From: Leptolyngbya sp. | GTDB lineage: Bacteria > Cyanobacteriota > Cyanobacteriia > Phormidesmidales > Phormidesmidaceae | Length of the DNA stretch: 64,000 nucleotides | Reading direction: 5' to 3' | NCBI GenBank assembly: GCA_003249105.1 | Contig: QBLT01000003.1 | Span: forward strand, 1-64,000 | Shown here: one piece after another, positions 1,106 through 6,399 of the stretch | How the letters are laid out: each line of letters starts with the position of its first letter | Numbering within the stretch: the stretch's first letter is position 1 | The notes under the pieces: generated by a model | Told to the model about the DNA's origin: nothing | Database searches by the model: none | The model's input: only the letters and a program-made list of their open reading frames with translations | Position numbers and translations under genes: made by a program

Positions 1106-3718
1106 ATGCCCAACGCCCACCGCGCTTTTCAAAACCTGCACGATGACAACGGTTACAAGTCGTTTGAAATGCCGGGGGCCAAACCCCACTACAACCCCGA
1201 TCGCCCCGGCCAGGTCGAACACATCGCGCTGGACTTGAGTCTGGATCTGGAGCAAAAGATCTGCGAGGGCACCTGCAAAATTCGCATTAACCCCGTGCGC
1301 GACGGCGTTGATCGGTTGACCCTCGATGCGGTTAACCAGCAGATCGAGTCGGTAAAGGTGGGCACCGCCAAGCAAGACTTTGACTACGATGGCGAACAGC
1401 TGGTGGTACGGCTGAAGAAGCCCACGATCGCAGGCCAGAGCTTTACCGTTGCGATCGCCTATCGCCTGGTGCAGCCCGAGCGCGGCATCTATTTCATTGG
1501 CCCCGACAAACACTATCCCGACAAACCCGTGCAGGTGTGGACCCAGGGCGAAGACGAAGACTCGCGCTTCTGGTTTCCCTGCTTCGACTATCCCGGTATG
1601 CTCTCGACCTCAGAGATTAAAGTGCGGGTGCCCGCCGCCTATCAAGTCGTCTCCAACGGCGCGCTGGTAAACACGACCGAAGATGACGACCACAAGATCT
1701 ACCACTGGCACCAGCAGCAGGTGCACCCCACCTATTTAATGGCTCTGGCGGTGGGCGAGTTCGACGTCATCCAAGACCAGTGGCAAGAGATTCCTGTTAC
1801 CTACTACGTCGAGAAAGGCCGCCAAGACCAGGGCCAGATCACCATGGGCAAAACGCCGCGCATGGTGGAATTCTTAAGCGAAAAGTACGGCTACCGCTAC
1901 GCCTTCCCCAAATACGCCCAGGTGTGCGCCGCCGACTTTATCTTTGGCGGCATGGAAAATACCTCGGTGACCATTCTCACCGATCGCTGTTTGCTGGATG
2001 AGAGGGCGGCGATCGACAACCGCAACTCTGAAGCTCTCGTGGTTCACGAGCTGGCCCACCAGTGGTTTGGCGACCTGCTGGTGATCAACCACTGGAGCCA
2101 CGCCTGGGTAAAAGAGGGCATGGCCACCTACTCCGAAGTGATGTGGACCGAGCAGGAGTACGGCGCGGACGAAGCGGCCTATTACCGCCTGGGCGAAGCC
2201 CGCAGCTACCTGAGCGAAGACAAGAGCCGTTACCGCCGCCCCATGGTCACCCATGTGTACCGCGAGGCAATCGAGCTGTATGACCGCCACATCTATGAGA
2301 AAGGAGCCTGCGTCTACCACATGATTCGCGCCGAGCTGGGGGATGCCCTGTTCTGGAAGGCGATTCACACCTTTGTGCAAGACAACGCCCACAGCACCGT
2401 GGAAACCATTGACCTGCTGCGGGCGATCGACAAAGCCACCGGGCGCAACCTGCGGCCCCTGTTTGACCAGTACGTGCTGCGCGGCGGCCACCCCGACTAC
2501 AAAGTCGCCTACAGCTGGGATGGCGACAGCAAGCTGGCCAAAGTCACCGTTACCCAAACCCAGGCCAAAGACGGCGACACCAGCAGCACCAGCGGCCTGT
2601 TTGATTTGAGAATCCCCATTGGCTTTGGCTACATCAGCAAGGGCAAAACCCCCAAAGTCGAGATCAAACCCTTCACCGTACGCCTCCACGAGCGCGAACA
2701 AGCCCTGTTCTTTCCGTTAGATAAAAAGCCCGATTTCATCAGCTTTGACGTGGGCAACCACTATTTGAAAACGGTGGAATTGGAGTATTCCGTCGCGGAA
2801 CTGAAGGCGCAGCTGAAGCATGACCCCGACCCCCTGTCGCGCATCGAGGCGGCGATCGCCCTGGCCAAAAAAGGTAGCCTCGAAGCCGTCACCGCCCTCA
2901 CGGAAGCCCTCACCGACGAACCCTTCTGGGGCGTCCGCGCCGAAGTGGCCGAACAACTGGCCTCGGTAAAGCTCGATCAAGCCGTCGAGGGATTGCTGAA
3001 GGGACTGGAAGACCGCGAAGCCCGCGTGCGCCGCGCCGTGGTGGAAGCCCTGGGCGACATCAAGACCGCCGAGAGCTACAAGGCATTGAAGGCGATCGCC
3101 GAAAAAGGCGACCCCAGCTACTACGTCGAAGCCGCCTCCATTCGCTCCTTTGGCAAGGTGGGCGCGGCTGATCTGGAGGGCAAAACCAAAGATAAGAAAA
3201 CCCTGAAGCTGCTGGAGAGCATTCTCAAAGAGCGCCAGGGGTGGAATGAAACGGTCAGGTCGGGGGCGATCGCTGCCCTCAGCCAGTTCAAATCCTCTGA
3301 AGAAGCGCTGGATCTGCTGCTCAAGTACACCGAACCCGGTACGCCCCAGGCTTTGCGATTGGCGGCAATTCGCTCCCTCGGGGCGATCTCTAAAGGCCAG
3401 AGCAAACCCAACGTAGAGCGCATTCTAGATCGGCTAGAGACCATCGCCAGCGAGTCGTTCTTTCTCACCCAGGTGTCGGCGGTGTCGGGCTTGAGCGGCA
3501 TTGAGACCGGGCGGGCGATCGCCATTCTGCAAAGTTTAGCTGACCACACCCCCGATGGCCGCGTGCGCCGCCGCGCCCAGGAGGCGGTGCAGCAGGTGCA
3601 AACGGCGATCGGCAAAGATAAAGCCGTTGAAAAGCTGCGCCAAGAGCTGGATGATCTGAAGAAATCTAACCAAGACCTCAAGAGCCGATTAGAAACTCTG
3701 GAGGCGAAAGCGAAGTAG
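1106..3718 (+). CDS. M1 family metallopeptidase (aminopeptidase N-like) with C-terminal HEAT repeats
   Basis: GGMEN and VHELAHQWFGD (HExxH) motifs; HEAT-like helical C-terminus; 870 aa. Confidence 0.95.
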   Translation: MPNAHRAFQNLHDDNGYKSFEMPGAKPHYNPDRPGQVEHIALDLSLDLEQKICEGTCKIRINPVRDGVDRLTLDAVNQQIESVKVGTAKQDFDYDGEQLVVRLKKPTIAGQSFTVAIAYRLVQPERGIYFIGPDKHYPDKPVQVWTQGEDEDSRFWFPCFDYPGMLSTSEIKVRVPAAYQVVSNGALVNTTEDDDHKIYHWHQQQVHPTYLMALAVGEFDVIQDQWQEIPVTYYVEKGRQDQGQITMGKTPRMVEFLSEKYGYRYAFPKYAQVCAADFIFGGMENTSVTILTDRCLLDERAAIDNRNSEALVVHELAHQWFGDLLVINHWSHAWVKEGMATYSEVMWTEQEYGADEAAYYRLGEARSYLSEDKSRYRRPMVTHVYREAIELYDRHIYEKGACVYHMIRAELGDALFWKAIHTFVQDNAHSTVETIDLLRAIDKATGRNLRPLFDQYVLRGGHPDYKVAYSWDGDSKLAKVTVTQTQAKDGDTSSTSGLFDLRIPIGFGYISKGKTPKVEIKPFTVRLHEREQALFFPLDKKPDFISFDVGNHYLKTVELEYSVAELKAQLKHDPDPLSRIEAAIALAKKGSLEAVTALTEALTDEPFWGVRAEVAEQLASVKLDQAVEGLLKGLEDREARVRRAVVEALGDIKTAESYKALKAIAEKGDPSYYVEAASIRSFGKVGAADLEGKTKDKKTLKLLESILKERQGWNETVRSGAIAALSQFKSSEEALDLLLKYTEPGTPQALRLAAIRSLGAISKGQSKPNVERILDRLETIASESFFLTQVSAVSGLSGIETGRAIAILQSLADHTPDGRVRRRAQEAVQQVQTAIGKDKAVEKLRQELDDLKKSNQDLKSRLETLEAKAK

Positions 3719-3804
3719 CAGGGTACTGCCATTGCTTTGCATGACGCACCTTGGTTAATTCCTAAACCTACGAGGTGACTTCTGCACAATGTCTATTCAA
3801 GGGC

Positions 3805-3872
3805 GTTGTGCGGGGACTGTCGGTATAATTACCCCATATAAGGTAGTTATACGGAAACTGTCGGCATAAAAA
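3805..3872. repeat. Two imperfect 27-bp direct repeats (GTTGTGCGGGGACTGTCGGTATAAtta / GTTATACGGAAACTGTCGGCATAAaaa), 41 bp apart
   Basis: Copies at 3805 and 3846 read directly. Confidence 0.7.
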
Positions 3873-3891
3873 GTTGTTAGTGGAATAGGCC

Positions 3892-4653
3892 ATGAGCAAA
3901 GTTGTAACTGTTCAACTGGAGTGGAAATATTCTCCCAAAACCTATCTGGAGGAACCGATTTCAATTTCATTTGAAGGAGCCGACCTCGAGATTAAGGATG
4001 GAGTCGCAATCGCAAACATAGATCCTGACCTATACCATACGGATAGCTCAATACGGGAAGATTTAACCCGACAAATCGAAAGTAGAATGCATGCCGTCCA
4101 AATCATGACGCATAAAGATTTCGAGTTGAGTAAGCCATCCCGAACGGATATTCGAGAAGATGGGAAAAAGAATCATTTTCTGGAAATTGAGTCTTGCGTC
4201 ATAACCATGAGCGTTGGAGCAGTTGACCTAATAGTAAAAGATAAAAATGGAAATATTGTCTCGGATACGAAAAGAGACCGTTTAGATAAACAAGAGTATT
4301 TTGCGTCTCTAGTAGATAAGCATAGAAACTCTGATCCCACCCTTGACCAAATGCTAAATAGCTACCAAAAATCAGTGAAAGACCCTGACAATGAATTAGT
4401 TTATTTATACGAAATTAGAGATTCACTATCCGAGGAGTTTGGATCAAAGACAACCGCAATCAAGAAATTAGGTATCACAAGTAATGAGTGGGATGAAATC
4501 GGAAAACTGGCTAATACTCTCCCGCTCAAACAAGGCCGACATAGAGGCAAAGCGGTAGGCGCACTCAGAGACGCAGAAATGGCAGAGCTTGAGAAGGCAC
4601 GTAAATCTGTCGCTTATCTAATTGAAAAATATCTAGAGTATTTGGAGGCGTGA
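3892..4653 (+). CDS. Orphan hypothetical protein (253 aa), possible HEPN-like helical C-terminus
   Basis: ORF with lower GC than its flanks; C-terminus YLYEIRDSLSEEFGSKTTAIKKLGI…LRDAEMAELEKARKSVAYLIEKYLEYL. Confidence 0.75.
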   Translation: MSKVVTVQLEWKYSPKTYLEEPISISFEGADLEIKDGVAIANIDPDLYHTDSSIREDLTRQIESRMHAVQIMTHKDFELSKPSRTDIREDGKKNHFLEIESCVITMSVGAVDLIVKDKNGNIVSDTKRDRLDKQEYFASLVDKHRNSDPTLDQMLNSYQKSVKDPDNELVYLYEIRDSLSEEFGSKTTAIKKLGITSNEWDEIGKLANTLPLKQGRHRGKAVGALRDAEMAELEKARKSVAYLIEKYLEYLEA

Positions 4654-4743
4654 TAAATTCACTAATAATCACATGCACTCGGACAGCAAAAAGCGCTGCC
4701 CCTTCGCTCTACTTTTTGCTGCCGGTGATGTGAAGCGTTATCT
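4652..4743 (+). other. Candidate attC site 1 (integron cassette recombination site)
   Basis: Left arm TCACAT-g-CAC-t-CGG-a-CAGCAAAAAG pairs with right arm CTTTTTGCTG-CCG-GTG-ATGTGA, leaving three extrahelical bases on one arm; outer GATAA…TTATC; right end GCGTTATC; abuts the stop codon of the upstream ORF. Confidence 0.55.
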
Positions 4744-4849
4744 CGCTTCGATTTGACTGTGGGGCGGTTCTTCAAAGTTGCTTACCTGTCTCTGAGCCTG
4801 CTATGGCAAACCAATGCTTGGGCACTGCCTGTAGTGCTATAGTGGTGTC

Positions 4850-5287
4850 ATGCCAGGTTTAGCTTTGCTGCGGATAGTTGTTGATACCAATGTTGTCTTT
4901 GAAGGTCTGACCAAGCAAGGCGGGGCTTCAGGCTTAATTGTTGATGCTTGGTTGGCTGGGCTGATGGTGGTATGTGTCTCCAATGCGCTTGTCTATGAAT
5001 ATAGTGACGTACTATCTCGCAAGCTATCAGCAGAACGGTGGCGTAAACTGAAACCTGTGCTGGGGCAACTGCTGAGTGTTGCTCAATACACCAATATTTA
5101 TTTCTCGTGGCGACCGACTTCTCCGGATGCAGGGGACGATCTCGTGATCGATTGTGCGATGAATGCAGGTGCGATCGTGGTTACGTCTAATATTCGAGAT
5201 TTTCAGAGTGCAAAAAAGTCGCTGGGGCTGCGAGTTTTAACCCCTGTGCAGTTTGTAGAGGCATTAGCATCAGGAGAAAAGTCATGA
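4850..5287 (+). CDS. Putative toxin-antitoxin system toxin, PIN family
   Basis: RIVVDTNVVFEGL, LVIDCAMNAGAIVVTSNIRDF: PIN-domain acidic motifs. Confidence 0.85.
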   Translation: MPGLALLRIVVDTNVVFEGLTKQGGASGLIVDAWLAGLMVVCVSNALVYEYSDVLSRKLSAERWRKLKPVLGQLLSVAQYTNIYFSWRPTSPDAGDDLVIDCAMNAGAIVVTSNIRDFQSAKKSLGLRVLTPVQFVEALASGEKS

Positions 5288-5625
5288 GCCGCTTGACCTT
5301 ACGATTACCTGAGACCTTACATCAGCACCTCACTCAGCTTGCCGAAGGTGAAGGTGTGTCGCTGAATCAGTACATCGTCTATGCATTGACCCGCCAAGCA
5401 TCTTTAGCCCATGTAGTTCAGGTCGTCCCCCAAGCGGAAGTTGAACAGCAAAAGCAGGCATTCCAGGATTTGATAAGACAGTTGGGGCAAGCTTCGTCTG
5501 CCGAAATTGAGGCTATTTTAGCAGCACGTGAACAAGCCGAGCCAGAAGCCGATCTGAGTGCAGATGTCGTTGCACATCTCAAAGAACGAATCGAGGCTGG
5601 TATGAATAGAGCCGATCGAAGTTAG
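5284..5625 (+). CDS. Cognate antitoxin (HicB/RHH-like, 'LRLPETLHQHLTQLAEGEGVSLNQYI')
   Basis: 4-bp ATGA overlap with the PIN gene; ribbon-helix-helix motif. Confidence 0.8.
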   Translation: MSRLTLRLPETLHQHLTQLAEGEGVSLNQYIVYALTRQASLAHVVQVVPQAEVEQQKQAFQDLIRQLGQASSAEIEAILAAREQAEPEADLSADVVAHLKERIEAGMNRADRS

Positions 5626-5633
5626 CGTCATCG

Positions 5634-5716
5634 AGATAACAAGTCGTTGGAGCGGCGAACAAAGTTTTCTCGCTCCGTTCAAATTGATGAGTCGCCGCTC
5701 AACTTGGTCGTTAAGC
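5634..5716 (+). other. Candidate attC site 2
   Basis: TAACAAGTCGTTGgAGCGGCGA … TCGCCGCTCAACTTGGTCGTTAAGC: paired GTT-GAGCGGCGA with one bulged G; right core GTTAAGC fits GTTRRRY. Confidence 0.55.
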
Positions 5717-5835
5717 GCACAATTCAACGGCAGGATGACCTCACAATTTGTAGTTTGGGCAAGGGGCCATGCCTAGTAGAAAATAATTGGCTTGGTGGGC
5801 TGCCTACTTGAAACCATCCCATGAGATGGGCTGGT

Positions 5836-6399
5836 TTAGCGAAAAATCTCAGCTATGGAAGTATTAAAGCCTGGCAGTAGCGGAGACGATAGCGTGTCGT
5901 CAACCAAAAGCGTACCGACCAACTGAAGCTGGGCTTCAGCACGACGATGGATTTCCAGGGTTTTGAGTTGCCAGTTGACGATCCAATATTCCTGCACCCC
6001 ATAGCGAGAATAGAGTTTGAGCTTGACCTCCTTGTCGCGCTGCTCGTTCAAGTCACCTGGAGAAAGTACCTCCACCATCAGCTCTGGTGCCACAATCAGG
6101 TGCCCCGCATCGTCTACACCATCAGCTAAGCGCGCTTGGCTAATCCACACCACATCAGGAATAACGGCGTCTGTAGGGGTAAAAATTACGCCTGGGGTTT
6201 GAAAGGGTTTGCCCAGACCAGTCCGTCTAGACCAAGTTTCTAGCTCAAAATGAATGTTGCCACCGGCTCCCTGGTGGCGAATGTGGGGAGCACGGGTCAC
6301 GTAGAGTTCTCCGTCGATAATTTCATAGCGCTTCCAGCCGCCGTCGTCGGGCATGGCGGCCAGATCGCGGGTAGTCCAGGGTTGGGAGTAGGCGACCAT
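5836..6399 (-). CDS. Uma2 family endonuclease (DUF820)
   Basis: PDVVWIS…APELMVEVLSPGD…KLKLYSRYGVQEYWIV; start at MVAYSQPW preferred over 6618. Confidence 0.9.
   Translation of the reverse strand: MVAYSQPWTTRDLAAMPDDGGWKRYEIIDGELYVTRAPHIRHQGAGGNIHFELETWSRRTGLGKPFQTPGVIFTPTDAVIPDVVWISQARLADGVDDAGHLIVAPELMVEVLSPGDLNEQRDKEVKLKLYSRYGVQEYWIVNWQLKTLEIHRRAEAQLQLVGTLLVDDTLSSPLLPGFNTSIAEIFR

Follow-up and report, generated by a model that had tools for sequence, protein, structure and literature searches.

How did two gene cassettes come to lie between conserved genes of a cyanobacterial chromosome with no integrase beside them? Working integrons exchange cassettes as precise units: their integrase, IntI, binds attC in the form of a hairpin made by its folded bottom strand and joins it to the G|TT point of attI or of a second attC. 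In the usual picture, a single integrase serves a single attI and a single array. CALINs are defined as clusters in which two or more attC sites lie less than 4 kb from one another and no integron integrase is nearby (PMC9668308), and both off-target insertion and loss of intI are published routes to them (PMC8618304). We analysed a stretch of 64,000 nucleotides from Leptolyngbya sp. (contig QBLT01000003.1; hereafter the window), for which a sequence-only reading had proposed an integrase-less CALIN remnant that carries an orphan gene and a toxin-antitoxin pair. Our results indicate that the locus is very probably the remnant of a small chromosomal integron, consisting of an attI site and two attC-closed cassettes, from which the integrase gene has been lost.

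Results

Layout of the locus

The window contains 72 HIP1 sites (GCGATCGC) where 1.4 are expected. HIP1 is a hallmark of cyanobacteria, and the window is therefore cyanobacterial. The locus falls within a HIP1-free stretch between sites at 3515 and 6550. It is flanked on the left by an M1-family aminopeptidase gene and on the right by a Uma2 gene and a phosphoglucomutase-like gene, an arrangement that is syntenic in the genus; the names aminopeptidase and phosphoglucomutase-like come from reading the sequence rather than from a family search. Between these flanks, and all on the + strand, lie an attI relic (3770-3880), gene cassette 1 (3877-4737, 861 bp), gene cassette 2 (4738-5710, 973 bp) and the right remainder of the acquired segment (5711-5826), which adjoins the chromosomal flank at the Uma2 gene on the - strand. 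This remainder is common to the nearest relative, G022, from 5707, and other relatives resume near 5827-5837. The three open reading frames named in the sequence-only reading are all present on the + strand, and GC content is 37% in the middle of the first against 57-61% in the upstream aminopeptidase gene, a deviation that it had also pointed out.

The attC sites

Both cassettes end in hairpins that had been likened to attC, each said to lie within about 10 bp of the end of its unit. This holds: attC1 (4660-4743, +) begins 6 bp past the ORF1 stop and attC2 (5634-5716, +) begins 8 bp past the antitoxin stop. The cores that had been given are likewise in place, GCGTTATC at attC1 (R' GTTATCT, 4737-4743) and TCGTTAAGC at attC2 (R' GTTAAGC, 5710-5716); the corresponding R'' boxes are CACTAAT (4660-4666) and AGATAAC (5634-5640). 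In place of the IntegronFinder model we used a covariance model, R1, built from 12 hand-picked attC sites, 11 of them from genomes other than the host and one from a different host contig, nearly all beside intI and none from the window. Alignment of these 12 sites shows strongly covarying arms, with 85% of cells paired, a level that 0 of 500 shuffles reached. Over the 64 kb window R1 gave exactly two matches, which are the two reported hairpins on the same strand: attC2 with 41.1 bits (E 1.4e-9 over 64 kb) and attC1 with 22.4 bits (E 6e-4 over 64 kb). The same search across 110 kb of this chromosomal region from other genomes found no attC. In the model alignment, the R''/R' and L''/L' arms of both sites pair, with the extrahelical bases on the left arm, as had been described.

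Folding, which had been suggested as a further check, bore out only one of the two hairpins. attC1 is far more stable than its shuffles (folding energy z about -5.0 to -5.5), and attC2 is not set apart from shuffles by folding energy alone (z about -0.3 to -0.6). Under the covariance model, attC2 nevertheless scores higher than attC1, despite its unremarkable folding energy. attC1 is degenerate, since its R'' ends in AAT rather than AAC and its R' GTTATCT departs from GTTRRRY. For this reason attC1 may no longer be able to recombine. An Rfam search found no match in the cassette region. We also considered the hairpins as transcription terminators and rejected this, as neither has a terminator-like tail. 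Elsewhere in the host genome, R1 detects several further attC on other contigs, and attC sites occur in all 28 genomes of the genus, with 2 to 84 in each.

The attI site and the integrase gene

What lies to the left of the first cassette distinguishes this locus from a bare attC cluster. We built an attI profile from sites beside intI or intI relics, none of them from the window, and it matches window positions 3815-3880 with 62.4 bits (E 1.9e-18). The full relic consists of repeat modules followed by a core, with the crossover point G|TT between 3876 and 3877. It is 92% identical to the segment in the same slot of G022, and window 3775-3880 has relatives in 20 of the 28 genus genomes, host included. 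Across the genus there are 59 core-bearing attI matches, nine with an intI piece within 1.5 kb and 50 without. At the nine, intI is always divergent and, where its start is kept, 181-192 bp away; seven of them went into the profile, and one site (G013 C7:993874) provides an independent check of the attI-intI distance. The profile match and the fixed attI-intI distance in relatives together identify the left edge of the locus as attI. The presence of attI in turn points to an integron whose intI was lost, in preference to a bare attC cluster or an off-target insertion. The description of the locus as an integrase-less CALIN remnant is thus supported, with the two attC sites and the lack of intI both borne out, and needs one refinement, the attI at 3770-3880 having been overlooked. 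An attI precedes the first cassette, as in a complete integron, and the intI gene is missing.

That no integrase lies near the cluster was confirmed by a tblastn search of 2-8 kb of the window, which returned no intI piece, and among the integrase matches listed for the host genome none is on the window's contig. An intI above the curated cut-off is present in 14 of the 28 genus genomes. The genome-wide search that had been advised for further attC and for IntI yielded, besides the attC sites on other contigs, only broken intI pieces in the host; as the host assembly comprises 412 contigs and is 93% complete, a functional IntI elsewhere in this genome could be missed. The window's genome (G000) holds two more integron relics with broken intI, one on C188 (11218-11560), where attC is kept, and one on C66 (1158-1340), where attI is kept. 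attI sites in the genus are also preceded by iterated, nearly palindromic modules (TTATACGGAAACTGTCGGYATAA; L118, L119, L121, L125, L146, in the attI-intI interval). These modules are possibly integrase binding sites.

The two cassettes

Cassette 2 carries a PIN-domain (VapC-like) toxin gene (4850-5287, 145 aa) and a ribbon-helix-helix antitoxin gene (5284-5625, 113 aa) that overlaps the toxin stop. The PIN/antitoxin assignment made from the sequence agrees with Pfam: the toxin matches PF13470 (E 1.9e-19, 71 bits) and the antitoxin the HicB family PF05534 (E 1.3e-8, 35.1 bits). PIN and ribbon-helix-helix domains in overlapping frames, as seen here, are among the features of a type II toxin-antitoxin system, for which the pair is a candidate. 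The pair resembles VapBC-like systems, in which a PIN toxin likewise lies beside a ribbon-helix-helix protein with overlapping frames; it differs from them in that the toxin gene comes first. We infer toxin-antitoxin activity for this predicted pair, which probably favours retention of the cassette.

The unit occurs in four other genomes with different flanks (G074, which belongs to another genus, G025, G027 and G002), and its PIN toxin is 87-89% identical in them. In DNA alignments with G074 and G025, identity sets in with the GTTA core (window 4737), past a different attC; the G074 and G027 copies close with an attC where attC2 lies here, and the sequence beyond is unrelated. The sequence-only reading would have been overturned had the two units always been syntenic and never exchanged; instead, the toxin-antitoxin cassette has different neighbours with breakpoints at the core, and G022 holds different cargo in the same slot.

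Cassette 1 carries ORF1 (3892-4653), a low-GC gene of 253 aa. Identity to G022 breaks off at the left edge of the cassette, G|TTAG, and identity to the toxin-antitoxin cassettes of G074 and G025 sets in at its right edge, G|TTATCT. No Pfam family matches ORF1, and the gene was not found in the other 58 genomes of its family that we searched. Its structure prediction is poor (mean pLDDT 55.6), and comparison of the model with the PDB gave nothing significant, the best plausible match being a HEPN-like bundle (E 0.31). Relatives exist in Nitrosomonas aestuarii (74% identity) and in a Thiotrichales MAG (60%). The Nitrosomonas aestuarii copy (L175 3001-3797) is frameshifted, but its left edge is still G|TTA and it retains the left attC1 arm; behind the ORF1 relatives of L174 and L175, R1 detects no complete attC, the left arm being all that is preserved. 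This copy suggests transfer of the cassette between cyanobacteria and proteobacteria, and a cassette common to Nitrosomonas points to gene traffic between the two groups. Cassette 2 and cassette 1 thus both recur in other contexts as self-contained units, the defining property of a gene cassette.

The slot in relatives

In alignment with G022, identity ends at window position 3880 (GTTAG) and starts again at 5707 (TCGTTAAGC). In the interval G022 carries unrelated cargo closed by another attC, and both of its junctions fall at the same G|TT points as in the window. No related proteins are shared between the cargo of the two. More generally, a protein comparison of inserts found none in common within one slot and one marginal match between two different slots. 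Other relatives have mostly unrelated inserts or nothing in the window slot, and R1 found no attC there. The gap between the aminopeptidase and the Uma2/phosphoglucomutase-like genes (window 3748-5826; L069-L084) contains unrelated genes in many relatives. As the slot lacks attC in other relatives, the aminopeptidase-Uma2 gap is itself a general insertion hotspot.

attI sites without intI recur elsewhere in the genus. In about four of five of the intI-less loci that we examined, attI is followed by an attC of the same orientation, and the cargo begins at the attI core. One such position, slot A (flank L126:4065-4698), has an intI-less attI in at least 10 species (G019, G021, G013, G012, G009, G022, G007, G024, G027 and G011). 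Where both of its flanks are available, different species have different cargo between the same flanks, and in several the core of the last attC is the exact point at which the right flank starts again. In some species slot A is present without attI. Example loci of slot A are L126, L134, L136, L139, L140, L128, L171 and L161.

Discussion

The locus has two attC sites, one attI and no intI in cis, and it differs from related genomes with the precision of cassettes. On our preferred reading, an integrase gene would once have lain to the left of attI and since been lost, and IntI recombination at 3876/3877, 4737/4738 and 5710/5711 would have set the cassette borders. Cassette 2 would have brought the PIN-type toxin with its antitoxin, and cassette 1 an orphan gene shared with proteobacteria. 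We infer IntI chemistry at the locus from these borders, recombination at the attC sites being predicted, and loss of intI appears a better account than a transplanted attI.

Could the cassettes have arrived without an integron ever being here? A distant IntI might have used a chance GTT-like site, which would fit the lack of any intI piece in cis and has a published precedent among CALINs (PMC8618304). A chance site would not carry an attI, however, and the ~105 bp to the left of the first cassette form a full one that matches intI-adjacent sites at 62 bits, so we regard off-target insertion as extremely unlikely. Another possibility is that the attI-like segment has nothing to do with integrons and is a dispersed palindromic repeat beside which the cassettes lie by chance. 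The element is indeed iterated and nearly palindromic, and 50 of its 59 copies are far from any intI. Such a repeat would not be expected to keep a constant distance from intI, even at a site outside the profile, or to be followed so regularly by attC in the same orientation with cargo that begins at the core, and we consider it highly unlikely. Finally, an ordinary operon-like island with a terminator after each unit and an accidental resemblance to attC would explain why both hairpins are found no more than 10 bp from a stop codon; it can hardly be credited given that the attC model matches at both hairpins, and it is contradicted by the cassette-precise exchange of the toxin-antitoxin unit.

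The integron-remnant reading can be extended. attI sites without intI, the window's included, might be or have been platforms served in trans, with loss of intI in cis tolerated or even normal; we see this as a real possibility that falls a little short of an even chance. In its favour are the different cassettes with core-precise ends, where examined, at slot A, and the window's genome and G022, which have a common intI-less left junction and different cassettes. Where cargo changes with core precision at sites without intI in cis, IntI acting in trans is the simplest explanation. Against it, the host genome today has only broken intI pieces, and different cargo could also have come from differential deletion within a larger ancestral array, an alternative weakened by the fact that cassette-precise deletion would itself need IntI. 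Older activity in cis followed by loss of intI is possible at some attI sites. Only tentatively, and as somewhat less than probable, do we propose for the genus a distributed integron, in which intI-less attI at conserved slots, the window's among them, are loaded by an IntI encoded elsewhere.

The genus as a whole has more attI sites than integrase genes, and species differ in the cargo of their intI-less sites. Together these observations imply that a CALIN can, in some cases, be a decayed or trans-served integron and not the product of off-target insertion. The attI would escape a search in which intI and attC alone are counted.

How does the locus compare with known systems? A search of mainly open-access literature on orphan or integrase-less attI found nothing relevant. 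Like a CALIN, the locus has two attC less than 4 kb apart in the same orientation and no intI nearby; it differs in retaining attI, as CALINs are defined by attC alone. With sedentary chromosomal integrons it shares an attI followed by attC cassettes, a toxin-antitoxin cassette and a slot common to the nearest relative. Unlike them, it has no intI in cis and only two cassettes, and genomes of this genus often hold several attI sites rather than one array. Two earlier studies place Cyanobacteria among taxa with chromosomal attC sites (PMC8352920) and report intI in the phylum (PMC2426708); the locus belongs to the same phylum, and full sets of intI and attC occur in this genus. To our knowledge, both studies describe intI and attC rather than repeated intI-less attI sites. 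The window locus is thus well supported as an integron remnant of the CALIN type that retains its attI. Integrons and CALINs are already known from Cyanobacteria, and what is more unusual is the genus-wide pattern of multiple attI sites without intI.
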